Positions 9 through 41,233 of a stretch of 64,000 bases of DNA are shown here, in pieces. The stretch comes from Daphnia pulex (lineage: Eukaryota; Arthropoda; Branchiopoda; Diplostraca; Daphniidae): positions 310,001-374,000 of the forward strand of contig NC_060023.1 of assembly GCF_021134715.1 (NCBI RefSeq), given 5' to 3'. Within the stretch, counting starts at the first letter, position 1, and every line of letters starts with the position of its first letter. A program made the translations under genes and the position numbers. The notes under the pieces are model-generated. The model did not search any database and was not told the origin of the DNA. It was given only the letters and a program-made list of their open reading frames with translations.

Positions 9-134
9 CTTCAAACACGAGAGGCAGACGGTGTGGGAGCATTGCAGAAATTTGGGTTTCTTGCCAACATCGTCGTATTCGCAAAAACAAACGCCACAAG
101 TCACGAAATCTTCTACGTCGTTAGCCGCTGCCAT
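9..134 (-). CDS. RING-finger protein, first exon only (runs off left edge)
   Basis: Minus-strand first exon of 42 codons, ATG at 134, ending at a GT donor just below position 9. It encodes the first six zinc ligands of a C3HC4 RING: CGVC, then a KPKFLQCSHTVC block and SCL, with the same spacing as the complete paralogs downstream. The remaining exons (last RING cysteines, coiled coil, C-terminal module) would lie outside the window. The family is expected to act as E3 ubiquitin ligases, as TRIM-type RING proteins do. The start is chosen because MAAAND matches the MATAN-type starts of the paralogs and lies about 40-50 bases below a TATA box. Whether the full gene is intact cannot be judged here. 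Confidence 0.75.
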
Positions 135-550: not shown

Positions 551-2380
551 TTACTGGGATTCCATAGTTATGACGTAGTTCTCATGTAAATGAGCAGGTT
601 CCAATCCCGAGCAGAGGGACGCCACACGACCAAAGAGCTCGTTGGAAGATACATTTTTCACGTGCATTTCGTACTTTGGGTTTCGGAAATGTGCAAACGG
701 GAATACGAAGCTCCATCCGGTGATGGCGTTGTTATTAACGTCGGACGACAGAATCAAATTGTTGACACCGACCTCATCGACGTTTTCCGCTTTTGGGTTG
801 CAGTGGGATCTCTGATTAGCAGGGCCGATCATACTGGGAATTACAGGCTGGAATTGCAGATGTCCCATTGGAAATAAGACAAACGCTCCAAACTTATCCT
901 GTACAAAGAAATTAAGTTAAAACGTGATATTAAAACAAGGAATTATAGTAAACTAGTTACCTGATTGACCCTATTACAAAAAACCTTTGGAGATTTGTAA
1001 CAGAACTCGCCCAATTTCTGAACAAAATCCAAGTGAAATGTGGGCACGGGACGAATAAAAATTTCACCCTTTAGAGAACCAGACTGAAACCATCGCAGAA
1101 TAAAAACAGACGACTGCCCCAAGACGAATTTCGTATTTGCTGGTATAGAGGGTGGCAGAGATACGCTCAATAATTTAGCAGCTACTGTGGTACGTTTCTG
1201 GTGTTCGTTTTTCAATGCGGATGGAGATGACGCTGGAGAAATAGCAGCACTGGTCGTTTTTGGTCGCAGCTCATTTTTCAATGAAATCTTCTGCCTTTCT
1301 AGTAATGAAAAAACGGCATGCGAGAGCAACTGGGAATCTTGTCGGACTTGAGATCCTTTCAAAGCTGGACAGAGCGGTTGGAAACGGAATCCTTCTTCCA
1401 ACCAAGGAACCGTTGGAATTTGCCTGTCGTTTTCATCGTACAGATGGACAGCTATTTTCAATTTCTGGCGGAGTTCGTACTCTGAAGCTATTGCGTTTGC
1501 TTCACAATAATTTCGCTCATACAGCTCGATCAATTTTTCCATCTTCTCTTTCAAGGTCTCTGTTGTATCTTCTTCGGTCGAACCATCAACCAACGACATC
1601 AATTCTGAAAAGAACAATTCTTTCTTCGGTTGACCATCCTGGGCACAATCTTTTGATCCACTTCCTTCCAATATCGAAATCCATTCAGCCAAGCGCAGGT
1701 TGTTTTCGTCTTGGAGTTTATTTACTTCTTCCTCTGAACTCTGGACGAATTTCTTGATCAGAGCAAGTTGCGCTTGTACTTTTTTCCGTTCTTGTATCGC
1801 CATGGCCAATTTGTTCGTCCCAATGTCTTTCATTTTCAAAAGTTCTTCTTTGAATTTTAGAAGGGATTCCAAGTTCTTGATCGTGTCGGCCGTCATGTTG
1901 ACAGAAGAGTGACCAGATGGAGTACATCCTGGTTTCTCTGCCGATTCACAGGTCGAACACCAGCTGACTTCCCTGGAATATCAGTAAATTAAAATAGTAT
2001 AACTTATAGTTTGCTTCAAATTTGTTACATGACTTACATAAGTGTAACAATGTTTTTTGGCTCTTTCTTCTCTTTGAATTTGAGCATGTGGAGAGCGTAC
2101 GGGTTGTTGGGTAAACCGGCGACGTCCAAGCTGAGGATCATTTCGCGACAAAATGGGCAAGTAATCAGGTGTCCTTTACGCATTTCCTGAGCCACAATTG
2201 AGACTTGAAATAATTAATATTTGTTTGAGTTATGAGTTTGTCAAATTAATTTACCTTTAAACACGAAAGGCATACTGTGTGAGCGCATGGGAGAAATTTG
2301 GGCTTCCTGTCGAAATCATCGAATTGGTAGAAACAAACTCCACAAGTGACGAAATCTTCGACTTCGTTTGCTGTGGCCAT
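551..2380 (-). CDS. TRIM-like RING/coiled-coil protein with unrecognised C-terminal module
   Basis: Four exons: 2255-2380, 2038-2186, 961-1972 and 551-898, giving 544 residues with all phases consistent. A C3HC4 RING occupies residues 13-55 (C13, C16, C32, H34, C37, C40, C52, C55). A short Cys/His segment (C97, C100, C108, H113) sits where TRIM proteins carry a B-box. A coiled coil covers about 118-190. A middle module has the signature GFRFQP then LLSHAVFSLL. The C-terminal module begins near VFILRWFQSG and ends in TMESQ. RING-B-box-coiled-coil proteins are ubiquitin ligases whose C-terminus picks the target. The middle and C-terminal modules recur in the paralogs here, but I cannot assign them to a known domain. 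Introns are 62-68 bases. Its neighbours on both sides are paralogs in the same orientation. Confidence 0.85.
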
Positions 2381-2420
2381 TTCTCACAGTAGACTGCCCA
2401 CATCGTATCAATTGCTTCAG

Positions 2421-2444
2421 CATATAAATGTTCTTCTTATCAGC
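2421..2444 (-). promoter_or_regulatory. TATA box and GATA element of the 551-2380 RING gene
   Basis: On the minus strand, GCTGATAAGAAG is followed about 3 bases later by CATTTATATG, 41-64 bases before the ATG at 2380. The rest of the gap down to 2867 shows nothing recognisable. Confidence 0.5.
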
Positions 2445-2866
2445 GGATGATTGGATTACGACACGAAATTTATTTTCGAAGTTGCTTCATGGTACCCAAA
2501 GGTCTTGTATACGTAGCCTATCTTACGCGGTAAGGAGTATAGTATCACCACAGGTATCAATCACCGATAAGTAAAGGCCTGAAAACGAATTAAAGTAATT
2601 CAGACCTATAGGTTAGAATCAATACAAATTAATGAAAACGATAAAAATTGACAAATCAATTAAGTGTATGACAAATACTCAATTTCTTAATACAGATTGT
2701 TTCTTTGATAAAAGTTGGTACTTTTAAACGATACCATTAAGTGTCTACTTCTTGATTGATGATTTCTAAGTCAGCTACTTTCATTATTTTGGTGAAGAAC
2801 ATCTTTACATCACGTACCGGTTATTGGCTTCATGGCAAAGGTAGTATTTCTTGTGAATCCAGGTTG

Positions 2867-4120
2867 TTATCGAGATTCCAGAGTCATGACGTAGTTCTCT
2901 CTGTCAGACTTGCTAGCCAGACTGAGTCTGACTAAAGGTTCCAGCATGTGGTGGTGAATAACACGACCAAAGACCTCATTGTCCGTCACTGTTTGTGGCA
3001 AATTCTCGTGCATTTGAAAATCTTCGTCATCTTCCAGTATAAAGACCAAACTCCAGTCGGTAATTTTATTACCCGACGCTTTAACCATGGTGATCCCGAC
3101 CTCATCAACATCCTTAGCTGCTGCTGTCCAGGAATCCATATGCTCAGTCATACTTGGAACCACAGGTCGGAACTCTGTGTGTAGCATTGAGAAAAGAACA
3201 AAGACTCCAGCCATGGCCTGTTGAAAAAATTTTTTGTTTTTAAATACAACCAAATTAATAGAAATAAATAAAGATGAGACCAATGTATACCTTGTCAACA
3301 GAACTGCAAAACTCCTTGGGGGATCTGTAACAAAATTCCCCTAGTTTCTGCACAAAGTCTGGATAAAATGTTGGTACAGGGCAGATGTGAATTTCACCTT
3401 TTATTCTACCTGACTGGTACAACCGGAGGATAAACTTGGACTGCAGATTTCTTGAAAAGAACAGCTCGGTTGGCACACTGTTGGGAGAGATCATGGATTG
3501 TTTTTTAAGTAATTCCATCAGAGAAATCATTTGAGCTAGGTTTGAGTTGTTTTCTTCAACAAGTTTTTGAGTTTTCTCTCCGGCAAGATTGATGGAAGAC
3601 ATAGTTTTAGCCAGTTGATCATCAATTGTTTTATGAACCATGACCATATTTTCTAATGAACGTTGAGAAATAGCCCTGTAAAATAATCATTGTTGTTGTG
3701 AGTATGCTAATTATGAAAAAATGTGAAAAAATTTTATACAGAAGATCTGTTGACATCTTTTCCATTTTCTTTTTCTTTTCTTGCTTGAGCATTTCGAGTG
3801 CATACACATTGTTTGGCAGTTCCAGGATTTCACAAGCCATCCGACAGAATGGACACACGATTATATCATCCCCTTTCTTGAAATTGTGAAAATGAGGGTC
3901 AGTCTTGATAAGGTGAATTTCTTCCAAGAGATAAAAATAAATTATACAAATGGTAGCTTACTGAAATGTTGTAGATGCATTCAGAGCAAAGGGTGTGAGA
4001 ACATGGCAGGAACTTGGGTTTTCTATCTATCTCATTATACTCTCGTATACAAATTCTACACTTCACGAATTCGGCAATATCCTCGTCATCATCGAGAGAC
4101 ATTGATAATGATATCGACAT
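2867..4120 (-). CDS. Short RING/coiled-coil paralog lacking the middle module
   Basis: Exons 3962-4120, 3740-3903, 3291-3675 and 2867-3217 give 352 residues. RING ligands are C21, C24, C40, H42, C45, C48, then a longer loop before CPFC (C70, C73). The coiled coil runs straight into the C-terminal module (FILRLYQSGR, KLGEFCY, then FVLFSM and TLESR). The Cys/His segment and the middle module of the long paralogs are absent, as in the gene at 12323-13533. The start at 4120 is the first ATG in frame upstream of the RING. The acceptor of exon 2 is the least certain join: AAG before residue T54 is the only phase-consistent site seen. Probably an E3-ligase-like protein with a reduced middle region. 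Confidence 0.75.
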
Positions 4121-4580
4121 AACTTCAATTACTCGATTCCCTTGACCATACAACTTAAATTTTTATACAAAAATTGTAGCCACTTGATATCCAATAAGTG
4201 AAATCAAAAATGCAACAAAATATTATAAAGATATCAAATGTTATTGAAACTTTAAAACCACACCACACTCGTGATTTTTTTTCAAAGATGGAGGTTTTGG
4301 AACCACAGACTACGAAAGTCTGTTGTGGAGGAACCGAGAAATGGCAATGGCGGCAATTGAATGGGGATGGGTTCACAAATCAGAATGGATCGGAAATTCG
4401 GAATGGATTAGCGACAGTGGCGCCTCTGGATAATTTGAATTAGAAAATCAAAATTCGATCACCTTTAAAAAATTTAATTTATCAGTTTAGTTAAGAAATG
4501 TTTTGAGCATTAATAATACATTATCATTTTATTTAATCAAAGTATAATACATTCCGTATTTCCGTTAAACTTCATTGGGA
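4121..4580. other. Intergenic, no supported gene
   Basis: About 460 bases, AT-rich in its left part. A short open frame runs at about 4198-4440 on the plus strand, but it has no similarity, splice context or codon signature that supports a gene. Confidence 0.4.
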
Positions 4581-6310
4581 TTATTGCGATTCCAGAGTCA
4601 TGCTGTATTCTATTCGTTCTGATTTTTTACTTTTGCTAAGTTGCGTCATAGCTTCCAACATATTATTATGAACAACTCGACCAAATAAAACATTATCCAA
4701 TACATTTTCATGCAAATTATCACGTTTGATGAAATGCTCATACTCTTCCAATACAAAGATGAAGCTCCAGCCGATAACTTTGCCAGCCGATGTCTGAACT
4801 AAGGTTACACCTACATCATGGATATCTTCAGCTGTATAGTTAAATAAAGGGTCGTAACTGCCATCTTCGTTGGAGCAATGACCAATCATACTAGGAACTT
4901 CCGGTTGAAATTGTGGGTGCGTCATCGAAAATAAAACAAACACCTCTGAAAGAGCCTATAAATACGTTTAAATTATGTTAGTTTGAATGCTGTAATATCT
5001 GATAACATTAGAATATGTTACCTTGTCAATACCAGTAGAAAATTTCTTCTGAGTCTTGTAACAAAAATCACCCAACTTTTGCACAAACGCAGGATGAAAT
5101 GTAGGCGCTGGACGGATGTGGATTTCACCTGTCGACCTACCCGATTTAAACAGTCTTAGAATAAACTTGGACGACAGATCTCCCAAAACAAATTTGCTCT
5201 TGTTGGATATTGTTGGAGGCAAAGACGTTAACTTGGAAGCACCTGCTATTGGCTGTTCATTTTTCAAAGAGATATTTTGCTTCTTCAACAAGGAGAATAC
5301 GGCGTGTGAGAGTAGCATCAAATCCTGCTGGAATCCATTTAATAGAGATGGATTGAAAGGTTGAAAGCGGAATCCTTCAAAGAACACGGGTAGCGTCTGG
5401 ATCGGGTGATCGTATTCATCGTACAGGTAAACGGCAATTTTTGTTTTACTCCGGAGTTCATACTCTGAAGCAATGGCCGTCGCTTCACCGAGTTTCTGTT
5501 CGCACAGTTCGACGGATTTTTCCATCTTCAGTTTCAGCGTCTCGGTCGAATCCGCCGCAGTTGAATCGTCGAATAAAGATTTTAACTCTGATAATACCAA
5601 AGACCTTTTCGGACCGTCTTGGTGATTTGTTTGGTCAGTTTTCTTCACGTCATTTTCCATTACTGAAATCATTTCAGCTAGGCAAAGATTATTCTCGTCC
5701 TGGAGTTTCTGGACTTGTTCTCTAGCAGTTTCGATGGATTTCATAATCAAGTCCAGTTGCTTTTCAACCTTTTTGCGCTCTTGAATAGCCATGGCCATTT
5801 TGGTCGTCCTAGAATCTTTCAGTTTCAACATTTCTTCTAGTGAGTTGAAAAAGGCATCCACATTTTTGTTATGCATCCTACCAACAAAATAAATCAAAGT
5901 TAAAGTAAAAGATTGAATTGAAATAAGTGAAAATCTTACAGAGGATTAACAACAATCGAAGTGAGTTCTTCAATTTGTCTCTTTTGTTTGATTATGTGGA
6001 GGGCGTGGTTATTGTTGGGAAGAATCCATTTTTCCTTGATGTCCTTCCTGGGATCGGTGCTAATGTTTCGGCAGAACGGGCATGTAATGGATTTCTTGCC
6101 TTGACTTTGACTTAATAATTTCTATGGAATAAAATTGCTTTTATAAAAATTGTGTTGCGTCTATATTGAATGGAAATGAATTACCCTGATGCACTCGAGG
6201 CAAACGGTGTGGAAACACGGAAGGAATTTGGGTTTCCGAATTTCTTCGTCGTATTCGTACAAACAAACGCCACAGGTAGCGAAATCTTCGGCGTCGCCAA
6301 ACGTCGTCAT
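4581..6310 (-). CDS. TRIM-like RING/coiled-coil protein, long form without Cys/His segment
   Basis: Exons 6185-6310, 5940-6121, 5022-5877 and 4581-4955 give 512 residues, all phases consistent. RING: C13, C16, C32, H34, C37, C40, C56, C59. Exon 2 encodes the WILPNNN-HALH stretch shared with paralogs. Exon 3 opens directly into the coiled coil, so the four-ligand Cys/His segment of the 551-2380 gene is missing. The middle module (GFRFQPF, LLSHAVFSLLKKQ) and the C-terminal module (FILRLFKSGR, GEIHIRP, KLGDFCY, then FVLFSM, GWSFIF, TLESQ) are both present. Likely a cytosolic ubiquitin ligase. The target-recognition role of the C-terminal module is inferred only from its position. Confidence 0.85.
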
Positions 6311-6790
6311 CTCACGCGCAGTCTAGTCTAAAGTATTATCAGTCTCACATCACATTTAGCCTATTTGGATTTTTGGCCTTATCGTTTGTTGAAACCGAAA
6401 GGCGTAGCAATCATACTGTTGCTATGGCAATAACCTGCATACAAGAGGCATAAAGAACGATATCAGATTAAAAAACAATTTGAAATAAAAGTAAACTAGT
6501 TTCTCATAACGTCGTACGTGCTGATTATCGACTAAACTGCAATCTATTCTTAGAATGGCGTAAGCTAACCGAGAGTTGCATTACCTTGTAATTCGAGGTA
6601 CGGCACGTACGGTGGTTTTTATTGCTAATAATTAGCAATCGATAAATATCAGAAAAGTGTCGCTTTACAAACTAGGATGGAGGCATTACTTTCCAGGCTA
6701 CTGCCACGTCGACCAAATTCGCCTATAAAACCTGGATGAATTCATAGTTAAATCAATCGTTTCCCAAGCAGCAACAGTCAGCTCTTCAAC
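6311..6790. other. Shared upstream region between divergent genes
   Basis: Separates the minus-strand RING start (6310) from the plus-strand secreted-peptide gene (6791). It holds TTATCA close to the RING start (about 6335) and a TATAAAA box at 6724 for the plus gene. The rest is AT-rich with nothing else seen. Confidence 0.5.
6724..6730 (+). promoter_or_regulatory. TATA box of the small secreted-peptide gene
   Basis: TATAAAA lies 67 bases before the ATG at 6791, in line with the short leaders of other small-exon-1 genes in this window. Confidence 0.55.
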
Positions 6791-7215
6791 ATGCAATCGC
6801 ACAAGGTAAAAAAATTACAATTATTAAATATCTTAATGTTGTCCTAATGTAGATACATGTTTTTATTGCACGTTAGATTTTTGTGGCTATGTTGGTCGTA
6901 GTAATGGTCTCACTGGCTACTGCTAAACCCGTTCCCGGATACAAAAAAGGATCGGATCCTAATGCTGAAGCCCAATTGCATCGCAACATCAAGAAAGAAT
7001 ACGGAAATGAAAAACGGTACGAAACTTTGAAAAACTCCAACGTTAAATTCGTTCAAGCAGAAGAAAAGTCTTTCGCCGCCAAAAACCCACCAGCTGCAGT
7101 TATAGCCCCAGCAGTAGTTCCGGATAAGAATATCGGAGTTGCACCGGATCGCAAATGTCCTCTGCCAAAGCAAATGGATTCAAAGGGAAACTGTCGCGAA
7201 CCTTGGGGCCGCTGA
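6791..7215 (+). CDS. Small secreted protein of unknown function
   Basis: Two exons, 6791-6805 (MQSHK) and 6877-7215, give 117 residues. Residues 1 to about 21 form a clear signal peptide (IFVAMLVVVMVSLATA). The mature chain is Lys/Asn/Pro-rich and polar, with one pair of cysteines near the end (KCPLPKQMDSKGNC), which could form a single small loop. A tiny first exon followed by a signal-peptide exon is a layout also used by the genes at 19016 and 21241. I do not recognise the family. The product is probably secreted, but no enzyme or binding motif is visible. Confidence 0.7.
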
Positions 7216-7739
7216 AACTGTTGAGGTACATAAATTCACATTTAAAACTAACCTAAATTTCTCAAGTTTCAAATATTTCCATAAATTTAGTTTTGAATTT
7301 CAAAATGCTTGGCTTTTGGAGGACAATATTGGAGTCGCTTCACCTACTACCCAGTCATGTTTACCGAGCACTGAATACTATTCAATATTCTAAACCCCAT
7401 ATTCTAAACGCCAAAAACCCACCAAATGCAGTTCCGGCCATAAGAAACCTTTCTTGGGCTAAATTTGCAGACACACCCATATCCGCCACAGCTGAGGTGT
7501 ATTGACTTCACACGTCCATCCGGAATACCCTCATTCTCCACTTCTACTTTTCCGTCATGTAACCCACTATATTACTTGATTTGCTGGCCACTCCAGAATA
7601 TTCCATTATTAGCATTACTGAATTGATTTGCCAAAATATATTTTACTGCATTGCACTTGATTGATTCACTTTTGGTTGTAATGCAGTCATGAGAAACTAT
7701 GAGGGAGCTGGGATTCATAACTAAAATTTCATTTGGGAT
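7216..7739. other. Intergenic with a weak copy of the neighbouring coding sequence
   Basis: Around 7410-7440 a stretch reading AAAAACCCACCA resembles the Lys-Asn-Pro-Pro codons of the secreted-peptide gene (about 7078-7110). This may be a decayed partial duplication. The match is short, so it is only noted. Nothing else was seen. Confidence 0.25.
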
Positions 7740-8074
7740 TTTTTTGCTCACCTTGCTTAATAGAATCACAGCAGCAGGTGTTATTGGGCAGAATCCATTT
7801 TTCTACTTTGCCGGAGTCTTTAGAAATAATTTTCCCGGCATACTGGACAAGTGATCGTGTCGTCTCGTCGTATATCCTTTTCAGTTTAGACCAAATAGAA
7901 TTAATAATATTAATGTAACGTTTTTTTAAAAGGTATTAGACACAATTTACCTGACACGGAAGGCAAAATGTGTGCGAACACGGAAGGAGTTTCGGTTTTC
8001 TAACTTGTTCCGTCGTATTCACATAAAAAAACTCGGCGTGAGATAAAATCTTCTTCGTTGTTGGTAGTGGGCAT
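7740..8074 (-). pseudogene. Decayed RING gene fragment (exons 1 and 2 only)
   Basis: Minus-strand remnant with the exon order of the RING family: an ATG at 8074, LCEYD, RKPKLLPCSHTFCLPC, a GT donor near 7950, then a second exon with ITCPVCRE and WILPNNT. The frame is lost inside exon 1 (after CEYDGT) and again just after VCREN. No coiled-coil or C-terminal exon follows before the plus-strand gene that ends at 7215. It is therefore a truncated, dead duplicate sitting between two working members. Confidence 0.75.
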
Positions 8075-8314
8075 TTCTCCAATCGACTATCAATTGTATC
8101 CGAAATGTGTATCCTAAATTTACCTTCGTCAAGTCGTAGCCTTCGTCCGTTTTAAAAATTTGAAATTATCATATTAACCATTCGCCAGTTCAGCTTCAAC
8201 GACGTTGTATTAGTACACGACTATACAGCGATGCAAACCCAAATTTGACAAGGTGAAAAACTTCAAATTTCATCAAAACAAGTTATGAAACACGATCTCC
8301 CGTCTCATTTCAAA

Positions 8315-10059
8315 TTATTCGGATTCCAAAGTGAAATTGTACTCTGCACTTTCAGCCTTATTGACCGTACTCAACTGACTCAAGGAATTCAATGTCCGAC
8401 TATGTTTGTCCACAGTTCCAAAGTACTCGCTATCTAATATCGATTTAGGTAGGTTAGTAGGATAATTGAATTTGTCAGAATCCTCCAACAGAAAGAAGAA
8501 ACTCCAGCCCGTAACTACCCCGGAAGACTTTTTCACCAAAGTTAAGCCAATCTCGTTGACATTGTCAGCTATTAAGGGGCCGTATCTGCGCTTGCTGGGA
8601 ACAGGAGGCTGGAATTGTGGGTGATGCATTGATAACAAGACAAATTGTTCAGATGTAGCCTGAAAATGTAGAAAGGTTTATGTAGAAAGGAAAGAATTGC
8701 AAAATTAAGGCTGTTTATACTTTGCTGATGGTACAGGAAAAGTCACGTTGGGAACTGTAACAAAATTCGCCCAGTTGTTGCACAAATTTCGGATGAAATG
8801 TGGACGCAGGTCGAAAATGAATTTCGCCTTTCGGTCTGCCCGATCGAAAAATTCGGAGAATAAACTTGGACGAAGAATTCAAACGAAAGTTACTGCGGGG
8901 ATGAGCTATGCTATGCGGATGAGCAGTTTCTTGTGTTTGATGGCTTGGTAATTTGGTCGATGGACCACTCGTGACTGTGTTAATCGGTTGAACCTCCTTT
9001 TTTAACGAGATCCTTTGTTTTTGTAGGAGCGAGAAAACAACATGAGAAAGTAATTTTAAATCCTGTTGAGTTGGCGGTTCAATTTCGGATGGTTGATTGA
9101 ACCGAAATCCTTTTTCGAACGCGGGGAAAGTTTGGATTGGACGATCGCTTTCATCGAACAAATGAACTTGAATCTTGGTTTTCTGGCGGAATTCGTACTC
9201 TGTAGCCACTTCTGTGGCTTCAGTAAGTTTCTGATTGTACAATTCAACAGACGTCATCATCTTTTGCTTCAATGTTTTGGCTGTGTCATCGTATGTCGAG
9301 TCATCCACTAACGAAAGCAACTCTGAAAAGACCACGGCTTCCTCTGCATCCCCATCGTCTATGACAGGAAAATCCTTTGATCTTTTGGTTTCCAAGGTTG
9401 AAATCAGTTCCCCCAGGCAAAGGTTATTTTCATCTAGAAATTGTTTGGCCTCCTCTTCTGCAGCTTGAATAAATTTAACAGCGAGGCTCACTTGCTCTTC
9501 AACTTCTTTACGCTTCTGGATGGCAAGAGCTAATTTGTTCACTCCAGTGTCTCTCATTTTCATCAGCTCTTCTTTCAAAACTGTAAGGGATCCTATCCTG
9601 TTTGAATAATAAAACATTCAAACAAAGAAAACATTAATTACCAACAATACTTAATGGAACATTTAAAAAACATGTCATCACTTTGAAACTGCAGAACTTG
9701 AAGTCAGCTCGGCAATTTTTTTATTTTGCTTGATCACGTAAAGGGCATAACTGTTGTTGGGTAGAATCCATTCTCCTTCTACGGATGTGGTTTCTTTTGA
9801 AATCATTTTGCGGCAGAATGGGCACGTAATAGTGTCCCCTCGGCGGATTTCCTGTTAAAATGAAGAACAGTTAAATGGAACACAATCAAACAATAAGTTC
9901 TTTCAATTTTTGACGAAATACCTGAACACAAAGGAAACAAACAGTGTGGGAACAGGGAAGAAACTTGGGTTTACGAATTTCTTCGTCATATTCGCATAAA
10001 CAAACTCCACAGGTGACAAAATCTTCAACAACATCTGTACCAACGTTTGCCGTAGCCAT
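8315..10059 (-). CDS. TRIM-like RING/coiled-coil protein, long form
   Basis: Exons 9922-10059, 9682-9851, 8721-9597 and 8315-8659 give 509 residues. RING ligands are C17, C20, then LPCSHTVC and LCV, with the last pair in ITCPFC at about 56-59. Exon 2 carries [12 protein letters not shown]. The long third exon holds the coiled coil, the middle module (GFRFNQP, LLSHVVFSLLQKQ) and FILRIFRSGR-KGEIHFRP with KLGEFCY-type residues. The last exon has FVLLSMHHPQF, GWSFFF and ends TLESE. A GTGATG donor after exon 2 is weaker than average but fits phase and paralogs. Predicted function as for the other members: probable E3 ligase with unknown target. Confidence 0.85.
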
Positions 10060-10479
10060 TTCACAGCTCACTGCATTTAAATCTTATCAAATCAACTTTT
10101 GCCACCAGAAAGTCTATTTTTCGATTTTTTTCGCCACCTGTGTTTTGATTTGAAGGACAGAGATTATTATTTTGAGCCGACGTTGCCACCTTTAAAACTG
10201 TGCGCGCCATCTTAAGTAAAAAATCGAAGCCTTTTTATTTTTGAATCGAAGTTCGAAGATCGGAAAAAAAGTTTCCAAGGCGAAATGCCAAAATGGAAAT
10301 AAAATCACTTTTTATCAGTACTCAACACAACAGCCAACATATCCATTTAAAATACGTTCGGCCTTCGGGCTGACAAAAAGCAAAAAGGAAAGTCTACTTT
10401 GGCATTATGCAAGTTTTCTAAAACAAAACGTCACGTCATGAACAAACTAAAAAAAAACGTATGCTGCAAATTTGTTACC
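10060..10479. other. Intergenic upstream of RING gene
   Basis: Holds a CTTATCA (GATA-type) site about 24 bases above the RING start at 10059. No TATA box is clear and no other feature was seen. Confidence 0.4.
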
Positions 10480-10622
10480 GTTATTAGATACCAAAACAAA
10501 TGGTATGACGTGCTGTACACTGAAGAAATTTGGGTTTCCTGGTAACATCACCGTACATACTAACACAGTCGGACAGTCCAATCCCACAAGTGATCTTGTT
10601 GGCGTGAGCTGTTGCTATTTCG
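10480..10622 (-). pseudogene. Solitary decayed RING first exon
   Basis: Read on the minus strand it gives IATAHANKITCGIG, later [13 protein letters not shown]. That is closest to the first exon of the RING gene at 12323-13533, which has an identical QC-x-ARHT variation. The start codon reads ATA and several zinc ligands are gone. No further exons follow. A decayed duplicate exon. Confidence 0.6.
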
Positions 10623-11017
10623 AAAAATCTTAATGAACTAAGCCAAATTATGAGCCGAATACAATACGCCAGCTCTAACCTGCTCTAACATTCACTTTCG
10701 TTTCATTTCACACGTGCACGTGCAGACGAACAAACAAAGATACTTGAGTGATAGAGCCATCTATCAACCGCTTCTATAATCACGATACAGAATATTAAAA
10801 AGCGAGGGAAATCCAAAAACGAAATTGAAATTTGAACAGAAAAAAGGGAAACGACTTGCATTTCGACAGAATAAAACAATGTCATGTTTGATAAATATTA
10901 ACTCAGTCTTTCTTCGCAAAAATAAGTTGTATTTATTTGTGTTAAATTGAACTTGATGTGTCAGTTTATTTGGGATAGATGATTCTAAGGCACAACAAAC
11001 CTTAGCAATTATATATC
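10623..11017. other. Intergenic, 3' flank of RING-MIB gene
   Basis: About 395 AT-rich bases without a recognisable gene, RNA or repeat. Confidence 0.4.
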
Positions 11018-11858
11018 TTAACATTTATCCGGCGACGTGAACTCATTCGGAGTAATGACTCTCAAATCATACTTGCCTTTGACACCCATGCGATATGTAT
11101 TGGATCCACCATGGTCCCAGGTGACGGATATCCAACCGTTGACTAAGTCGCTCGTCACGGTGCCTCCCTGTCTCTCAGTCGAATTTCCTGCAGTGTCTTG
11201 GTCGGCCCACATCCAGTCAACTCCACGAACAACCCGAGCCCCTGGCCCCAGACGTTGAAGCTTCACACTGGTCTCTGGGGCGACAGCAACCGCCTGCTGT
11301 CGACTTTGGTTAATCACAATTTGAAGCATAACTTCTTCCAAAGCTTCTTGGTTTTTCCTTGTTTCCATCTCTATATAACTCATGGCTAGAGCAGCCTTCA
11401 GTTGGACATCCTCCTCTTCTGGCTCCCTAAAATAATAGCACATTGAAAGAAGGATGCTAAAACTTGATCTTGCCCTTAGCACAAATGGATCTTACACTGG
11501 TTTTGCAACATTCAGCACGGGTTTTGATCGGTTGATAAGTTTGAGCATTTGTAAGGCATAAGAATTGTTGGGTAGAATCCATTCTCCTTGTTCACTGGGG
11601 TCCTTGGAAGTAATTTTGCGACAAAAGGGGCACGGAATAGTGTTATCTTGACGAATGTCCTTTAGTCATAAAATTGAGAATTACAAAATAATTATTTCGA
11701 AATAACTTATCAGTAGATTGTCCATGTCTTACTTGAAGGCACTCGCAGCAAACGGTGTGTGCACATTGGAGGAATTTCGGTTTCCTTTTGACTTCGTCGT
11801 ATTCGCACAAGCAAACTCCACAAGTCACGAAGTCTTCCAATTCATTTTCACTGGCCAT
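11018..11858 (-). CDS. RING - UIM - MIB/HERC2 domain protein
   Basis: Exons 11733-11858, 11496-11659 and 11018-11426 give 232 residues. The first two exons are the family RING (C13, C16, C32, H34, C37, C40, C52, C55) with [10 protein letters not shown]. The third exon is unlike any neighbour. Residues 100-116 ([17 protein letters not shown]) fit the ubiquitin-interacting motif pattern of acidic run, L-x-x-A-L-x-x-S-x-x-E. Residues about 155-220 match the MIB/HERC2 domain known from Mind bomb and HERC2 ligases: [42 protein letters not shown] proteins catalyse ubiquitin transfer, UIMs bind ubiquitin, and MIB/HERC2 domains bind protein partners. No coiled-coil C-terminal module is present. It appears to be a chimera made by replacing exon 3 of the RING family. 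Confidence 0.85.
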
Positions 11859-12322
11859 TTCAATTATGGTCAACATTCGACTGCGATCGTTTTCAATAGC
11901 ACACTAGTACGCGCTTTTATCAGCTGCAGCGGCGGTGATGTTAGACAAGCGACTGTATAGGCGTGAACCTGCAGCACTAAACGTTAACACTTATCTTTCT
12001 GATTAGCTACCACATAATGCTGCATAATCTAACATACGGCAATCACTTCATAACTCACAGTTCAAGCCAGGAAAAATTTAAGAAGTTGCGGTTAGTATAG
12101 GATATTCTAAAGAAATCTGTGTCTGCATGATCTGTATGACAGTTTGTATATAATAGACAAATAACAATGGTTTAAAAACGCATAACATTTCATCATATTA
12201 TGTTGAAAAAGATCTACCAAAAGGAACTGTTTTATTAGTAATAACGAAATTTAAAAACTCACTCTTGGTACACTACGTAAATCATTTTTCTTTAAGTCAT
12301 ACAAAACGAACGCCTTTTGAAA
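11859..12322. other. Intergenic with GATA/E-box element of the RING-MIB gene
   Basis: CAGCTGATAAAA (minus strand, about 11915-11926) lies 57-68 bases above the start at 11858, the same distance as in the two leftmost RING genes. The remainder is AT-rich with nothing else seen. Confidence 0.4.
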
Positions 12323-13533
12323 TTATCTGGATTCCAATGTAAAAGTATACTTTGTTCTTGCTGACTTGCAAACCCTGCTCAATTGTTCCAGCACATCATA
12401 ACAACTAACGTGGCCAATGAGCTCGCAGTCGTTCGATACGTTTTCGGGCAGGTTATCGCGTTCTATGAACGTTTCGTTATCTTCCAGTATGAAGACGAAG
12501 CTCCATTCCGTAACTTTATTGCCCGAAGAATAAATCGAAGTTATACCGACCTCTCCGTAATCGCAAGCCTGTTCCACGGAGAAGTTGTTGATGTCACTTG
12601 AGTCAGGCAGAAATTGTGAGTTCTCATTCGACAGTAAAACAAAAACTCCTGGCATGGCCTGTCGTATTAAATATAACAAGATTTAAAGCTGCTTTATAAC
12701 AAGTTGTTTGAATAAAAAACCTGTGTTACCTTGTCAACAGTGCTGTTAAAATTTATAGGAGACTTGTAACAAAATTCACCCAACTTTTTAAGAAAATGTG
12801 TGGTAGCACGTGATATGTTAGGACTTATGTGAATCTCCCCTTTTGGCTGACCAGACTTATAAACTCTGAGTATGAAAACAGAACTGTCCTTCAAGACAAA
12901 ATTGTCTTTTAATTCCATCAGAGAAACCATTTGCGTCAATTTAAAATCATTTTCTTCCTGAAGTTTCTTTACTTCTTCTTCCGCTGCTTGGATGGATTTC
13001 ATAACGGCTCCCAACTGCTTGTGAGCCTCTTTTTGCTTTTCAATGGCAGTGGCCAATTGATTAATTCCTGCATCAGACTTGATTCCTGATCCACAAGTTG
13101 GGCAAACACTGGGACCTCTGGTGTTTTTTGTATGGTTATCAAGATTTTGCATATACATTACACCTGTTGAATCTTGAATGTTAATACTTACAGAACCTTC
13201 TTGTCGATGGGTTTATTCCCTTTCTGTTTTCCAAATTTCAGCATGTGAAGGACATAAACATTGTTGGGCAACTTGGAAGCATCAGCCACGTAGAAGTTTT
13301 CGCGACAAAATGGACAGGATACTGTTGCATTTTTAATAATTTTCTATTGTTTCAACAATATAGTAAGTTGTTTTATAAGGGCAAGGAAACGATTATTTTA
13401 CCCTTAGACACAAAAGGCAGACTGTATGGCGTGCAGAGCATTGAAGAAATTTTGGTATCCTATTTATATCGTCAAATTCACATAAACAAACACCACATGT
13501 TATAAAATCTTTTAAGTCGTTGGCTGTCGCCAT
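12323..13533 (-). CDS. Short RING/coiled-coil paralog lacking the middle module
   Basis: Exons 13402-13533, 13192-13343, about 12730-13108 and 12323-12658 give about 332 residues. RING exon: [22 protein letters not shown]; note the extra residues between C and H. Exon 2 has VSCPFCREN and LPNNVYVLHML. Exon 3 opens with a VCPTCGSG motif, then a coiled coil, then directly VFILRVYKSGQ-KGEIHISP and KKLGEFCYKSP. The last exon has FVLLSN, EWSFVFILED and ends TLESR. The start of exon 3 is uncertain: the strong-looking acceptor at about 13168 gives a stop, so I used a CCCAG site that restores phase. The middle module is missing, as in the gene at 2867-4120. Confidence 0.7.
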
Positions 13534-14222
13534 TTCGTAACTCGCAAGATAGAAACTGACGTTATCTAAATTTCTATCTAAACAAACCAATGCTCCAATT
13601 CAAACAGCTGATTTATTTTTCCCTAAACTCCAAAAAAAGGACTAACGGGAATCTGGTGAACTAAGCCGAGCAGGAAGCCGGGAAATACAAATTTGAGTTT
13701 TTTCTTCAGTAGGCTATGTATCTAAAAATGCTGGAATCCTCTTAGGTTGCGAAGTTAAAAAAAAAATTAAATATACATGCTGGCCTGATCCCCTTGGGTT
13801 ACGCCACGCCACACTTTCCTTTAGCTTAAACTGTAGTAATATTTTGGGCGTAAAATAGAGTGATAATTAATTATATCGTGAGGTGGCGGGCTCCGCCTCT
13901 CCTCATCTCTCTAGCGGTTGGCGAAAATTCCAAATATTTTGACTAGGAAAATGTCGTCATCAAGTTCTAGGCTGCATTAGTCATTTCTTTGTTTTCCTTA
14001 TCAGCAGGTTTCTACAAGGGAGACCTGTGGGGAAGTGCCGATGTATAAAGTCTCGTGTTTTATCAGTTTAGCTGAATCACATGCCACGCTACGGCCAATG
14101 TGCTTATCAGTAGTATATGGATTTCAAAAGACTGCACACTGCATTCAACTGTGCAGTTTAGTGATGGCTGTTACAGCATTACCTCCCCAGTTACCTGTGG
14201 TTTGATTTCCTTCTTTCCCATT
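13534..14222. other. Intergenic region between divergent RING and CD20-like genes
   Basis: Holds a TATAAAG at about 14043 and TTATCAG at about 14060, both possible promoter parts for the plus-strand gene at 14223, and a GC-rich patch near 13882 (GGTGGCGGGCTCCGCC). No gene seen. Confidence 0.4.
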
Positions 14223-14788
14223 ATGGAAAAAGCACTTGCCATAACTAACGTGGTCTTTGGAGTTGTTACCTTTTGTTTCCACGATCCTGAATCGGCTACT
14301 TTAGGCATTTGCGGAGGAATTTACCTGATGGTGTTTGGCCTTCTTCTCATTAGTTCAAAGTCAGTTTCATCTATAAATTTAACCTAGTAAAACTTTAGAT
14401 TGATAGACCATATGTTATTTGTTTAGGTTGAAAAATAAAGTCATTATCATAGGACTGGGAGTAAAAGCAACGTTCATTGGTATCGCATTAATCAGCCTTT
14501 ATACCAAGAGTTTCGACAGCTATCAAGGATTACTCGACAATTGTCAATTAATAGCTACTGTTATTTATGGATTAAAACAATGTAAGCTAAGCCAATTTTT
14601 ACAACCACGATTCATTCTTTCCATTCAGCCAAAATTACCTTTGTTTTTATGCAGGTGATAGAATTGCCTGGGATCCAATCATGGCCGTTCTCGGCCTTCT
14701 AATTATCGTTGTCAACTCATTCTTGGCCGTGATTACTTATATCTCAAAGAGTAATTCAAATTCAAAGACAATCGTTGGATTGGATTGA
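14223..14788 (+). CDS. Four-pass membrane protein, CD20/MS4A-like
   Basis: Exons 14223-14359, 14427-14581 and 14655-14788 give 141 residues. Four hydrophobic segments are visible: MEKALAITNVVFGVVTF, GGIYLMVFGLLLIS, VIIIGLGVKATFIGIALISLY and MAVLGLLIIVVNSFLAVI. The GICGGIYL-type motif in segment 2 and the Cys just before segment 4 (QC-DRIAWD) match the three paralogs at 17609, 61311 and 62912. The pattern resembles CD20/MS4A-type tetraspans, which act at the plasma membrane as channel modulators or receptor partners; that family call is tentative. Unlike the paralogs it lacks intron 1 and about ten residues between segments 1 and 2. Confidence 0.7.
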
Positions 14789-15166
14789 AAATTTAAAAAT
14801 GTTAGTGTTGGAAAAAACAAATTCTTTTTAGGTTGCAATTCTAATATTTCTCTTGATTTGATTATTACACGTTCTGATTTCCTAATTATTTGGTGTTTGA
14901 TTTTACCTTAGCATATTTGAGATGAGTCCGTGCATGATGCCCTCTAGCGGAAAGCGCTAAAAATGTAACTTTCAAAAGTCTTGCCAAATCGTGACTAGTT
15001 AAAAAATTCCGATTTCAAACACGTTCAAACGATAAAAGTCTTTGTTAAGGTTACATCATTGTCTTGATTTTAAAAAATAAACATGAAGGAATGGATAACA
15101 TCTAGTTAAACAACCTTTCTTGGCACACACCTTTCCGGGGAAAAACAAAACGATTGATTGTTGATT
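14789..15166. other. Intergenic with a CTCF-like core
   Basis: At 14938-14950 the minus strand reads CCGCTAGAGGGCA, a good match to the CTCF core. It lies between the convergent ends of the CD20-like gene and the next RING gene. Nothing else was seen. Confidence 0.4.
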
Positions 15167-16990
15167 TCAACGCGATTCCAAGGTGAAAGTGTAGCCACTT
15201 CTCTGGTATTTTGTCGTCCAGCTGAGCGCTTCAATAGCTTCAATACCTTGTGTAACTTGGCCGATGAAATAGACGGGCTGGATGGTTTTCAAGTGCATAT
15301 CGTTCCTTTTGTTTTCAAAGTACTGCAGAGGGAAAACCAAATTCCAACCTCCCAGATCGCCGTACTCGTCCACCCACAACGATATTCCGGCTTCCATGTA
15401 ATGGCGGGTGAGCGGTAAGCTAGACAAGTCATCATAGGAGAAGTCTGCCATGTCCTCGAACGCTGGGACAAGCAGAAACACGCCAGGAACAGTCTAAAAT
15501 TTAAAAAGAGAACGAGCGTTACGGAATTGGAAATATTTTGATGTTGCAACTATTAGACTCACTTTTTCAATCAGGTTGCTGAATTGTTTGGGAGTTCGGA
15601 AGCAGATTTTCCCCAGTTTCTGGATAAATTGGGAATTGCAGCTCGGAGATAATTTGATGTGGACAGAGCCCTTAAACGTACCGTGTCGCCGTACAGTCAT
15701 AATTAAAGTTGCTTTGTTGAGATCAAATTTTTCGATAGGGCTGTTCAAACTAATCACTGAGCTAGGATTGGTAGTCGTCACTGACGGACTCGTTTCTTCA
15801 AATTTCTTGGTCACAGAAAGGTTGTGGTCGGGAGGCTCATCAGCAGTAACATCGGATGTAGTTTGTTTGTTAAGCTTTGCGCCCCTCTTCTGAATGGAAA
15901 AGACGATGTGAGAGAGAAGCAGGAAATCGCGTTTGGTCGGGGACAGGTTGGTGTCGCTTGGCCAGTACGTGGTGAAACCCTTTTCCAGCCAGTCAAAGGT
16001 AGGAATGGTCTGATTTCTGGGGTCAGTAAGCCACACAGAAATTTTACTCTTTTTCTGGTATTGAAGAGTTTTGGCCACGGCGACGGCATCGGCTAATTTG
16101 CTCTCGCATGACAGTAGTGATTTCTTCATTTTCTCTTTGAGAGTATCGAAACTATCTTGTGGATTGGAATCGTCGACTAGAGATATCAATTCTGATAAAA
16201 GTGGGTCTTCATCTTGTGGTATTTCAGGGTTGAGAGGTTGATGTAAACAAGGACTACTTGCTTCCAACTCAGAAATCATTTCGACTAGGAGAATATTGTT
16301 TGTCTCTTCTTGTAGGTTGACTTCATGCAGGACTAGTTTTAAACATTGAGATAATTGATCCAAATGAGTCTGAACTTCTTTCCTCTTTTCGATAGCCAAA
16401 GCCAATTTTGTTTGTCCCTGGTCTCTCATTTTCTTGATATCATCTCTGAGTTTCAACAACGACTCAAAATTCTTGATTGTTTTTGCTGTCACATCAATGA
16501 TTGAGTGAACTGAACATCCCTGTTTAGCCAATGCTCCACAAGTGAGACACCATGTAGGTTTCCTATTGAAAATTGAAGGTCAACAAAACTTGTAAATTCA
16601 TGAAACAGAAAATTTGATTTTTGTACCCGTTTGTTGAATCAGGTTTACTTGCTGGGGTTTCTGGGCTTTTCTCTGAAAATTTGAGCATGTGAAGTGCATA
16701 AGAATTGTTTGGAAGACTTGAGACGTCATCCTGGTGAGAAAACTCTTTACGACAGAGTGGGCAACTAATGACAAACTCCTTGTGTATCTCCTACAGAAAG
16801 ACGGTATGGATCACTTATTCAAGAGTAATGTAAACAAAACATTATTTACCTTTAAACATTTAAGACAAAGTGTGTGAGCACACGGTAGGAACTTTGGTTT
16901 CCTGGTTTCAGCATCAAATTCACACAGGCAAATACTACAGGTAACGAAACTCTCAGTTTCCTCTGAATAAGTGCAAGCTGCAGCAGCCAT
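15167..16990 (-). CDS. TRIM-like RING/coiled-coil protein, divergent long form
   Basis: Exons 16850-16990, 16627-16790, 15563-16562 and 15167-15493 give 543 residues. RING: C18, C21, C37, H39, C42, C45, C57, C60 (ISCPLC). A Cys/His segment WCLTCG, then KQGCSVH, follows in the B-box position. The coiled coil reads KTIKNFESLLKLRDD onward. The middle module (IPTFDWLEKGF, LLLSHIVFSIQKRG) and C-terminal module (VHIKLSPS, KLGKICFRTPKQF, then GVFLLVP, GGWNLVF, TLESR) are the most diverged of the set. Its closest relative is the gene at 59364-60528, which stops where this one continues. It is divergent with the CD20-like gene at 17609, sharing a 619-base upstream region. Confidence 0.85.
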
Positions 16991-17608: not shown

Positions 17609-18305
17609 ATGGCGAGTTCGGTTTTCACTTTTGGAAATAGTTTTCTAGGAATTTTCGCTTTCATTTTACAGGTAAAAAATTTAACGAAATTATCACGACT
17701 GAATATCCGATGTTACGAATATTTTGTTCAAATCTATTTAACATATCTTTTTTTTTTTTAAATTGCAAAATGCGTTTAGATTGTGGCATTGATTGTTTCC
17801 GGTGCGCAGTGGATACCTGATTTGGTGAGTACTGGAATTTGGGGAGGAATCTTTCTCATCTTTAACAGCTTCGTGATCGCGAAAAAAAAATGGTTTATAA
17901 CTAAATTCGTTTCTATTATCGACGCATTAAGTCAACCAAAAAATTATGTTATCATCACAGGAAGAGCTCTGAACCCAACAAGTTTTGGCAATTTACGCCA
18001 TTTTAATTGGCCTCACCTTAATTGGGATGAACTCGTGGAGCATCAGTGCGTACCAACCCTTTATCGCCGATTGCCAACGGGTTCAATTCGCTAGAATCTC
18101 TTTGTGTGAGTTTTTATTTTTTAAATAAATTCAAACGAAATCATCTTTCTGGTTAATTTTAAAAATTAACTTTTGTTTTTGTTACTGTCGGCATATAGGT
18201 GGTCGAGTGGCTATCGATTCCTTGTTGATTTTGACCGGTATTTTTACTGTCCTACTTAACGTATGGATTTACAGTGAGGCTTCATCTTTGATTGTTGGAA
18301 GCTAA
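17609..18305 (+). CDS. CD20/MS4A-like four-pass membrane gene with a frame break
   Basis: Exon layout matches the paralogs: 17609-17671 (MASSVFTFGNSFLGIFAFILQ), 17780-17892 (GIWGGIFLIFNSFVI), 17961-18105 and 18199-18305. The last two exons encode AIYAILIGLTLIGMNSWSI and VAIDSLLILTGIFTVLLNVW, clear homologs of the others. The phase of exon 2 does not lead into the homologous frame of exon 3: between 17961 and about 17983 the reading frame is off by one, giving either an early TGA or a stop near 18000. Changing the length of the A9 run at the end of exon 2 would not fix this. It is either a recent pseudogene, a polymorphic null, or a sequence error. Confidence 0.55.
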
Positions 18306-19015: not shown

Positions 19016-19653
19016 ATGAAGGTAGTATTACATCTAATTCAATACATTTGAACACTTTTCAACACATTTGAAATTCATGATTTGGCTTTAGGGACTGTCA
19101 ATCTTGGCTCTGGTGATCGTTGGCATCGCCTGCGTGGTGGCCCAAGAAGACTCCAATGACGTAACTTTAATTTGAATTTGTGGGGTCTTGTTATTAGGAA
19201 TAAATATAACTATGATTAATATTTGAAAAGCAGGGGTCGGTGTTGGACTTTGCAGCGGACGAAACGGCCATGGCCGACGATAGAAACACCGGCGACCTTA
19301 TTATCAACTGCCGGAATTGCCACCCTCATTGTCATCCCAGTTGTGTGAAACCTCCTCATCATCATTACAACCATCACCATCGTCCTTATTCGCATCAATG
19401 CCCCAGCTGCCCACCCAGACCGACTTGCCCCATTCTCACCTGCCGGCCTATACTCCCTTGCCCCGTACCCACTTGCCCTCCTCATCATTGCCCACTCTGT
19501 CCTATTTGCCCAACCAAACCAACATGCCCAACTTGCCCTACCAAACCTCCTTGTCCTACCAAATGCCCGACTAAACCACCCCACTGCCTCAAACCTCATC
19601 CCACTCTGATCGGAGTCTGCCTGGATGTGGATTTGGGCATCGCTGGCAAGTAA
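19016..19653 (+). CDS. Secreted Cys/His/Pro-rich protein
   Basis: Exons 19016-19021 (MK), 19092-19160 and 19234-19653 give 164 residues. A signal peptide (GLSILALVIVGIACVVA) is followed by an acidic linker and then, from about residue 50, a low-complexity domain rich in Cys, Pro and His: CRNCHPHCHPSC, HHHYNHHHRPYSH, then repeats of the type CPTKPPCPTKC. It ends in a hydrophobic tail LIGVCLDVDLGIAG. Repeated C-P-x-C units with His clusters suggest metal binding or a disulphide-linked extracellular matrix or cuticle-like role, which is inference. The tail resembles that of the gene at 21241-21861. Polyadenylation signal AATAAA near 19884. Confidence 0.7.
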
Positions 19654-21861: not shown

Positions 21862-23004
21862 AAACTGCTGGAAAATGATCAGAATTTGAACTGGACAGGA
21901 TTTTGACTGGTGGAGGGTTTAGTCTTTGTTTCTATTATTGGTGATGGACTATTAAATAAACGGGAATAATAGATACGTGTGCATCAGGATGGTCGTATTA
22001 TTCCTTTTTAAATGGAAAAGAGAAGCGCATCAATAGGGATATTTAATTGAGCAAGGTTCTTAAACAGGCGAAAAGGCTAACATCGCTGTTTATTGTTTTG
22101 GAACAAAGACAATTTAGGATTTCAGGAATCGGATGGACAAGATCCTCTTCAAAAACGCAAACACCGCTGGTCGAAAAGGACAACAGTTTGAGCACAATTG
22201 CGATCAGATTATTAAAGGAATTGTTTCGATTGTTTCAATTATTCAATGTAACCACGCTCATCAAAAACCAATCCCAAGACTATACCCAACGTAGAAGCGT
22301 TTCAACTTTGACTGAATGTGATCCAATCAAACATCTTTCTATGTCTCTGATTAGGTTTTCTTTAATGTGGTAAAAATGTGACAGGCAGAGTGAAACATAA
22401 TTTCGATGGACTCTTTCTTGTTTGATTGATTGAGTTATCGATCCACGTGCTAAGCTGATCATTGATAGCCAGCAACACGCAATTGCTATTTCGTCCTGTG
22501 CCCCCGACTAATTTCAACGTCCACGCGCCATATCAACAGAAAAGCGGGCGCAGAAAAGGCCGTAACAAAAGGTCATTTTTTAAGAGTTTTTTTTAAGAAT
22601 TTTTCAAAAGTTTACATTTTTAAGTTGGACGGTTTACGCAACAATTGTTCAGTTTCAGCAATTTTCCATTTAACTGAGTTCCCCTAGCAACTAGTGTCCC
22701 GTAGCAGGGCGATAGACGTCAAAATGTGGATAAGTGGTACAACGGACATCCGTCAGTTGCGTCACAACTGCTGCGCCAAGTGCGTGCAGCAAACATATCG
22801 GGCTGTACACAACACGGATCTAAACAATTACCCCATTGACGAAAGTGACACATTTGCGAGACACCTGCTGTGTTGATATCAACAACAGGGCGAATAAACT
22901 GGTGCCCCATAAAAATGCGATGTACAGTATCGCCAAAGGGAATGCAACGAACTCGATTTCATTGAGAGAAAAACAGTTGGAGAAACCAGACGTGAGACAA
23001 AAAC
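21862..23004. other. Intergenic / leader of gamma-glutamyl hydrolase gene
   Basis: About 1.1 kb. Short overlapping open frames at 22.7-23.1 kb on both strands show no family signature and probably lie in the leader of the next gene. No TATA box is clear. Confidence 0.4.
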
Positions 23005-25095: not shown

Positions 25096-25173
25096 CTCGA
25101 CGATTCAACCCCAATAATCACGAAAGTTTTCACAAGCAAACTATTCAACTAAACTTCAACTCAAATCTTGAAA

Positions 25174-28723: not shown

Positions 28724-29222
28724 CGACTCATTTGCATGCCCTCCCACCCACCTACTAAATGTATATTACCATCGTCTATTCAGTTATTCTATCAAGTCTC
28801 AAAACAAGTTGAATCACCAAACGATTTTAAAATGTATAAAATGAAATTTTGAGTCATCGGTGATTACGTCATTTTAATAGCCCGGCATTTGTTACAATTA
28901 GATACCCGCCAGATGACACAAGCGTATAAGCATTTACGTGAGAGCATTGCGTATACGAGAGTGTCATAGCCTATAATCAGCAAGCAAATCGCTGTAAAAT
29001 AACATCTTTTACAAGTTTTAAACAACATTTTACTTCCCCTAAAATCCCAGATTGCATCAAATAACCCACAAATGGTGACATATACCAATTTAGTTCACAG
29101 GCAATAAAACTTGATAATTTCACGCCGATAACTTAGCCACACTAAACTTCCCCTGTTTTAGGTATAAAACGCTTGAAAAGCATCGACAAAAGTACAGACA
29201 CATTCGCGCTATAGTAACACAA
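28724..29222. other. Intergenic with TATA box of the next protease homolog
   Basis: TATAAAA at 29163 lies 60 bases before the ATG at 29223. Nothing else was seen. Confidence 0.5.
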
Positions 29223-30651: not shown

Positions 30652-30819
30652 ATCTGTTTCCCACCCCATCCTGCATTTCTAATTCTGGCGTTTCGTCTAT
30701 CAAAGAATTGATGATCAATTTAAATCAAAAAGATGGGAAAAATAAATGCTATTCGATTTGAATCAATAACACATGAAACACGAAGATTTTGCATTCTTCT
30801 TCTCAAAAACAAGTCCGAA
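30652..30819. other. 3' flank of protease homolog
   Basis: Contains an AATAAA near 30739; nothing else. Confidence 0.4.
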
Positions 30820-31309
30820 ACAAGTGGCCTGGGAAAATTAAATCCCCCCCCCCAAGCTTCAAAATAACAAGTGGAGCTCATTAGTTACAAACAAATTTCT
30901 TATCGGTTTCTTAATCATCCACGTACCCATTTTTACGCAATACGACACAATTCAAGGATAGATAAAAGTCGTATCTCTATAAATCGTCGCACTGCATAAA
31001 CAAGCCGCGGATAAAACATTTAGACTGGAAATTTGATTTCAATTAGACTGTCCGACAGGTCGACAAAGGCAATCCGATGATGTTCAAACAGACAGAGGAC
31101 TGCGCCTACAAGCAAATTGGGATCGTTTTATAGCGCCGAAATGAGACTCCTGCCAGATTGGCGATCCTTCCGCCTACACCAGACAGAGCTCTTATTCGTC
31201 TTGGGTCAACAATATTACGTCACCTGCTAACAGTCCATCTTCGGCCAGTCAAACGTCGGCCGTCTCTTTGCTACTCGTTTCATTCGTCACTTTCGCATTG
31301 AGATTTTAA
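30820..31309 (+). pseudogene. Relic protease homolog: upstream region joined to last exon
   Basis: 30820 to about 31015 matches the upstream region of the gene at 33866 (GATAAAAGTCGT, ACAAGCCGCG, and TGGAGCTCATTAGTT-like words in the same order). From about 31058 it jumps to a copy of the last exon of the 29223 gene (GTCGACAAAGGCAATCCGAT) with an in-frame TAG after IGIVL and a hydrophobic end. All middle exons are absent. A duplicated gene that lost its interior. Confidence 0.7.
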
Positions 31310-41145: not shown

Positions 41146-41233
41146 TACATTTCCTTAATTCTCAAAAATTATTCATATTACATTATTAATTCTCTACTAT
41201 TCTCTACAGTTCTTCAAATACAGGAATTCTAAA

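Follow-up and report, generated by a model that had tools for sequence, protein, structure and literature searches.

A tandem family of RING genes in Daphnia pulex with a C-terminal module predicted to be a strongly diverged cyclophilin fold

TRIMCyp, the fusion of TRIM5 to cyclophilin A (CypA) found in owl monkeys and macaques, is described as an antiviral protein in monkeys for which changes in specificity have been reported (PMC2924388). It is described as carrying a B-box (PMC2279257), and its CypA part is reported to have been acquired by retrotransposition (PMC3137616). Related proteins have been described outside primates. Zebrafish ftr52 is presented as a finTRIM with a Ran-binding domain and CypA as its tail (PMC3137616), and the Drosophila gene CG5071 as a tripartite motif joined to a cyclophilin domain, which was interpreted as having arisen convergently with that of primates (Sardiello et al. 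2008, PMC2533329); CG5071 is also listed among the fly RING proteins without human orthologues (PMC3166285). Some cyclophilins have altered active sites: human PPIL2, PPIL6 and SDCCAG-10 are reported to lack activity on tetrapeptides, and a proline-binding role has been suggested for such inactive members (PMC2911226). Here we analyse a 64,000-nucleotide stretch of the Daphnia pulex genome (assembly GCF_021134715.1, contig NC_060023.1, positions 310,001 to 374,000, forward strand; hereafter the window), which holds a tandem family of RING genes whose shared C-terminal module is predicted to be a diverged relative of the cyclophilins.

The array, on the minus strand, lies within the window's first 17 kb, and six of its genes, all within 551-16990, encode the module (Table 1; models assembled manually, then spliced by script). 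Each of the six is open from ATG to stop, with GT-AG introns of 58-85 nucleotides and the same intron phases, 0/2/0. The original prediction, made from the DNA letters and their open reading frames (ORFs), had proposed that these genes share a C-terminal module split by one conserved intron, and this proved correct: the last intron, in phase 0 and with GT-AG ends, falls inside the module, after its first helix and before its third strand, in frames that are open in all six. Identity between copies of the module is 27-53% (15 pairs), which together with the shared gene structure rules out chance as the source of the family. The motifs used to describe the module are present in looser form than had been worded, with KLGDFCY in g3, QLGEFCY in g5, KLGKICF in g8 and an end in TMESQ in g1. 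Pfam searches with the six whole proteins and with three modules agreed with the earlier view that the module matches neither PRY-SPRY, NHL, MATH nor another TRIM-type tail. No family was assigned to the module in g1, g2 and g8 at E ≤ 1 or in g3, g5 and g7 at E ≤ 10, and the three modules alone, each query with a one-residue splice slip, gave no family at E ≤ 10. Viral contigs scanned with the module gave 91 pattern matches and no relative.

A cyclophilin was suspected from the pieces KGEIHI, GWSFIF and FGRV..NMLEAM, and the predicted structure of the g3 module points the same way. The AlphaFold2 input consisted of window sequences only, in ten rows: g3 and g8 with the last intron, which keeps the frame, translated through, together with exon pieces from g1, g2, g5 and g7. 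Exon-4 rows were shortened until they aligned, so that the first 30-35 exon 4 residues of four copies lie outside the folded alignment. The g3 module model had a mean predicted local distance difference test (pLDDT) score of 62.5 and a predicted template modelling (pTM) score of 0.66, with ten-residue core blocks at 72-88. Its strands and helices follow the cyclophilin order, strand b4 being the one not assignable. In the PDB, Foldseek found 433 matches at E ≤ 10, the best being 2ose (E 2.5e-4, probability 1.00). Among the best 50 of the 433, 42 titles named a cyclophilin or a peptidyl-prolyl isomerase (PPIase), and two a cyclophilin-like fold (3kop); 2wlw is a TRIMCyp chain, five were large assemblies without a chain name, and no other fold was named among these 50. 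The macaque TRIMCyp domain 4dgc_E was among the structural matches listed, with a TM-score by target (TMt) of 0.60. A viral structure library, used as a control for how sharply the match stands out, gave 545 matches at E ≤ 10; the first four were PPIase or PPIase-like, with probabilities of 0.96-1.00, and the remainder of the best 50 of 545 had probabilities of at most 0.14. These predictions make it very probable that the module adopts a cyclophilin fold, strongly diverged; the barrel of eight strands and two helices that marks a cyclophilin is a predicted one. The module's fold, which had been taken to be unrecognised, is on this g3 model and the two Foldseek libraries that of a cyclophilin; a strong match to a known domain, which was to count against the original prediction, was found at the level of the fold and not at that of the sequence. 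The cyclophilin reading would also explain the nature of this tail, which domain libraries miss.

We examined the module for the active-site residues of CypA, which are given as Arg55, Phe60, Met61, Gln63, Ala101, Phe113, Trp121, Leu122 and His126 (PMC2911226). Read from the alignment to the predicted fold, counterparts of Arg55, Trp121 and His126 appear to be absent from all six copies. Strand b3 reads FVLFSM or a variant of it and has no Arg in any copy; going from there towards b5, the first Arg is met 12 residues on in g2 and at least 19 on in g1, g5 and g8, and g3 and g7 have none. The b6-b7 loop lacks Trp in six of six, and no His occurs within 6 residues before the FG/IG pair, again in six of six. 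With no apparent counterparts of these catalytic residues, the module probably serves for binding without catalysis. An active prolyl isomerase, belonging to an E3 ligase that works on isomerised substrates, would account for the Phe that hhalign pairs with CypA Phe113 and that is invariant in the six copies, but the three losses, shared by every copy, leave this idea with very little probability.

The N-terminal half is that of a RING protein. The zinc ligands of the RING are intact in all eight full genes, although in g7 the spacing between two of these ligands is longer by two residues, and Pfam places the RING above its curated cut-off in six of the eight proteins, g6 and g7 falling below. 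The nearest relatives of the g8 RING in the PDB are TRIM2 (E 4.3e-10) and TRIM3 (E 1.1e-8), over about 80 residues that reach past the RING itself. A Pfam search for zf-B_box found none in the eight proteins (five scanned at E ≤ 1, three at E ≤ 10); at the place of the B-box, a small CxxC..C..H knuckle occurs in g1, g8 and g9 only. After the knuckle of g8, AlphaFold2 predicted a single helix of 76 residues (blocks at pLDDT 62-86), a putative coiled coil. The middle region that follows in full members is absent from the short members g2 and g7.

We consider that these genes encode TRIMCyp-like E3 ubiquitin ligases, with a TRIM build that lacks the B-box and a dead cyclophilin fold that would hold the target, and we put the probability of this reading at roughly 0.6. 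The gene structure and the RING are direct observations. Such a protein would join the TRIM2/3-like RING through a long coiled-coil helix to a diverged C-terminal domain of cyclophilin fold without the prolyl-isomerase residues. By analogy with TRIMCyp, the coiled coil would pair two chains and the two cyclophilin-like heads would give avidity; the loops corresponding to the active-site face of cyclophilins might then grip the target, which the RING would ubiquitinate. Tandem copies with different loops could thereby take different targets.

Several results weigh against this reading. Pro_isomerase (PF00160) matches none of the six module-bearing proteins in Pfam, and the module alignment, searched as a profile against the PDB, returned a single chance match (E 1.4). 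Evidence for a cyclophilin from sequence on its own is marginal. Against a profile of 109 bacterial and archaeal cyclophilin domains plus CypA, hhalign gave P 0.053, with a default alignment of 41 columns in the C-terminal half; lowering the threshold (mact 0.05) extended this to a near full-length, in-register alignment of 5-176 to 4-159. Column shuffles did equally well or better in 13 of 300 cases, and the reversed alignment scored 13.3 against 18.1 for the true one. A narrower CypA profile (CypA plus 34 of 80 loci, 46 having been removed by a motif filter) was discarded, giving P 0.067 over 19 columns and a nonsensical alignment when forced to be global. In HMMER searches, the number of composition shuffles per 1,000 that equalled or bettered the true sequence was 2 for g5, 8 for g3, 21 for g8, 35 for g2, 90 for g7 and 374 for g1, which is near chance for the last two; the six copies are not independent tests. 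The weak HMMER alignments were in register with the expected elements for g5, g3, g8 and g7 and out of register for g1 and g2. The structural evidence has weaknesses of its own. The modelled g3 chain includes 22 residues read from the intron, and the TM-scores are modest (by query, 0.39-0.49; TMt 0.33-0.60; root mean square deviation 5.7-13.6 Å; best 50 of 433). A second AlphaFold2 model, running from the g8 knuckle to the C terminus, reached a pTM of 0.27 with the module mostly below pLDDT 50, and in Foldseek it matched nothing better than E 2.0, with no cyclophilin in the best 50 of 125. The thin alignment of ten rows, the low pLDDT, the failed g8 model and the want of a significant sequence match could all be understood if the module were an unrelated beta-barrel made cyclophilin-like by AlphaFold2's familiarity with cyclophilins. 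We regard this as improbable, given that cyclophilins were sharply singled out in two structure libraries, that the order of elements agrees along the length of the module and that the weak sequence signal is in register in four of the six copies.

What such ligases might do was considered from their divergence. Nei-Gojobori estimates were made for 8 of 28 gene pairs, of which 5 to 6 were usable per region (RING, coiled coil and module). Synonymous divergence (dS) was at least about 1.5 or could not be estimated in all pairs but g8-g9 (0.47-1.24), and the ratio of non-synonymous divergence (dN) to dS was 0.10-0.44 wherever both could be estimated. That dN is below dS in every estimable pair gives no sign of an arms race and is a further point against a TRIMCyp-like role. 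High or saturated dS with dN below it points to intact copies of long standing that are under constraint, and hence to birth-and-death that is slow at most. The co-oriented tandem array with two dead members, put forward in the original prediction, was recovered, the dead members being RING remnants only. Its interpretation as birth-and-death evolution of the kind seen in immune families is supported only in part, since in the pairs computed the intact copies are old and have been retained. Instead of defence, these cyclophilin-fold E3 ligases might serve a housekeeping or reproductive task, for example with one fixed substrate per paralogue and the array as an old duplication block with subfunctions; this would fit the constraint seen in all three regions of the pairs computed, the intact gene structure of the six module-bearing copies and the related architecture reported for fly CG5071 (PMC2533329). 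Six copies, a swapped tail in g6, a g9 without the module and two dead RINGs are more than is usual for a fixed housekeeping gene, and we rate such a task as quite possible, at slightly less than even odds. The loops of the predicted fold bear on the same question. Between copies, identity is 31-72% in strands and helices and 15-39% in loops, except for a two-residue turn at 83%, and the b3-b5 loop, which in CypA carries part of the binding face, ranges from 24 to 35 residues. This fast loop divergence is consistent with changing ligands, but it is typical of most domains. Defence may be one possibility, with a fixed cellular role about as likely, and an immune role is speculation. The most far-reaching proposal, which we think unlikely, is that of an invertebrate counterpart of TRIMCyp turned gene family: a multi-copy restriction-factor system with dead cyclophilin domains as pathogen-binding heads, loops diversified at the former active-site face, no B-box, and a head swapped for MIB_HERC2 in g6.

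Table 1. Members of the RING array and related features (positions in the 64,000-nucleotide window; the exon parts of the module are in genomic order; the module is cyclophilin-like by prediction)
Feature	Positions	Strand	Description	Basis
g0	9-134	-	RING first exon of a further member, truncated by the window edge	rest beyond window
g1	551-2380	-	RING, CxxC/CxxxxH knuckle, coiled coil, middle region, cyclophilin-like module; 544 residues, 4 exons	spliced model, open frame; RING above Pfam cut-off
g1 module	551-898 (exon 4 part), 961-1104 (exon 3 part)	-		alignment
g2	2867-4120	-	short member, 343 residues; without knuckle; module present	spliced model
g2 module	2867-3217 (exon 4 part), 3291-3434 (exon 3 part)	-		alignment
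g3	4581-6310	-	full member, 512 residues, without knuckle; supplied the folded module	spliced model
g3 module	4581-4955 (exon 4 part), 5022-5165 (exon 3 part)	-	intron 4956-5021, 66 nucleotides	alignment, structure model
RING remnant	7744-8074	-	broken frame (dead member)	tblastn, three-frame reading
g5	8315-10059	-	full member, 509 residues, without knuckle	spliced model
g5 module	8315-8659 (exon 4 part), 8721-8864 (exon 3 part)	-		alignment
RING first-exon remnant	10481-10621	-	stops after exon 1 (dead member)	tblastn, three-frame reading
g6	11018-11858	-	array RING exons, then UIM-like stretch and MIB_HERC2; without cyclophilin-like module; 232 residues	Pfam
g7	12323-13533	-	short member, 335 residues; RING with 2-residue insertion, under every Pfam RING cut-off	spliced model, Pfam
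g7 module	12323-12658 (exon 4 part), 12730-12876 (exon 3 part)	-		alignment
g8	15167-16990	-	most diverged module-bearing member, 543 residues, with knuckle	spliced model
g8 module	15167-15493 (exon 4 part), 15563-15706 (exon 3 part)	-		alignment
g9	59364-60528	-	g8 sister, 344 residues, ends just before the module	spliced model, Pfam, identity

Two members depart from the common plan and, like g0, were not part of the original prediction. The gene g6 lies between g5 and g7 and has first two exons of the array type, followed by a stretch resembling a ubiquitin-interacting motif (UIM), with 21.0 bits and thus at the Pfam cut-off, and a MIB_HERC2 tail (Pfam E 4.5e-16, 58.9 bits, cut-off 33.5), an apparent exon swap within the array. 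The gene g9 lies about 42 kb from g8; their RINGs are 87% identical, and tblastn in the window found no remnant of the module beside g9 at E ≤ 0.01. Trees supported only the pairing of g8 with g9 (95/99) and, weakly, that of g3 with g5 in the module (88/90). For g2, two acceptor sites are possible for exon 2, and we chose one of them. Genes for small multi-pass membrane proteins, identified by eye, were noted near both g8 and g9 (14076-14700, 17620-18100 and 61230-63600), an arrangement that would fit the duplication of a gene pair; the ORF at 14076-14384 gave no match in Pfam. A weak RING-like match on the minus strand at 21911-22204 (30%, E 0.001), with stops in all three frames, is either a very old remnant or chance.

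Elsewhere in the window, on the plus strand, two similar ORFs at 41159-42334 and 49077-50177 each encode one chain with two stretches resembling retropepsin-type aspartyl proteases (Pfam gag-asp_proteas and Asp_protease_2), and have the appearance of a single-chain retropepsin gene that was duplicated and possibly domesticated. An ORF at 25153-26682 (plus strand) has an N-terminal membrane-like stretch, judged by eye, and one KH domain (Pfam E 4.8e-8). Several serine-protease-like ORFs, recognised by eye, form a row at 29118-35313 (plus strand), and a trypsin domain was found in the one tested, 31729-32259. At 19216-19653, a plus-strand ORF is rich in Cys-Pro repeats, and the opposite strand is also open.

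Read as TRIMCyp-like E3 ligases, these proteins would share with TRIMCyp the RING, the coiled coil and the C-terminal cyclophilin fold. They differ from it in that TRIMCyp has a B-box, and none was detected in this family. TRIMCyp also carries a nearly unchanged CypA derived from a retrocopy, whereas here an intron lies inside the module, identity in the structural match is 10-11%, the catalytic residues appear to be absent and there are six paralogues. CG5071 likewise combines a RING and a cyclophilin in an arthropod; compared by its description only, it is one gene and is reported with a tripartite motif. In ftr52, too, the usual tail of a TRIM-type protein is replaced by a cyclophilin, although that gene is from a vertebrate and has a Ran-binding domain beside its CypA domain. 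TRIM2 and TRIM3, which provide the nearest RING among solved structures for the g8 query, differ in having a B-box and ending in filamin-NHL. PPIL2, PPIL6 and SDCCAG-10 resemble the module in joining a cyclophilin fold to an altered active site; they are recognised as cyclophilins, whereas the module is not recognised by Pfam.

Because the architecture is in print for primates, zebrafish and fly, the fusion of a RING to a cyclophilin is not in itself new. None of the titles and abstract starts listed by searches of the open-licence literature concerns a crustacean RING-cyclophilin family. If the many-copy arthropod form of the fusion is real, it was retained over a span sufficient for loss of the isomerase site and for variation of the binding face, and what its cyclophilin heads are selected for would become directly testable. 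The accounts cited here of the primate, zebrafish and fly proteins do not describe a family of several copies whose module sequence searches fail to recognise, which has lost the isomerase site and lacks a B-box, and in which one member has its tail swapped for MIB_HERC2.

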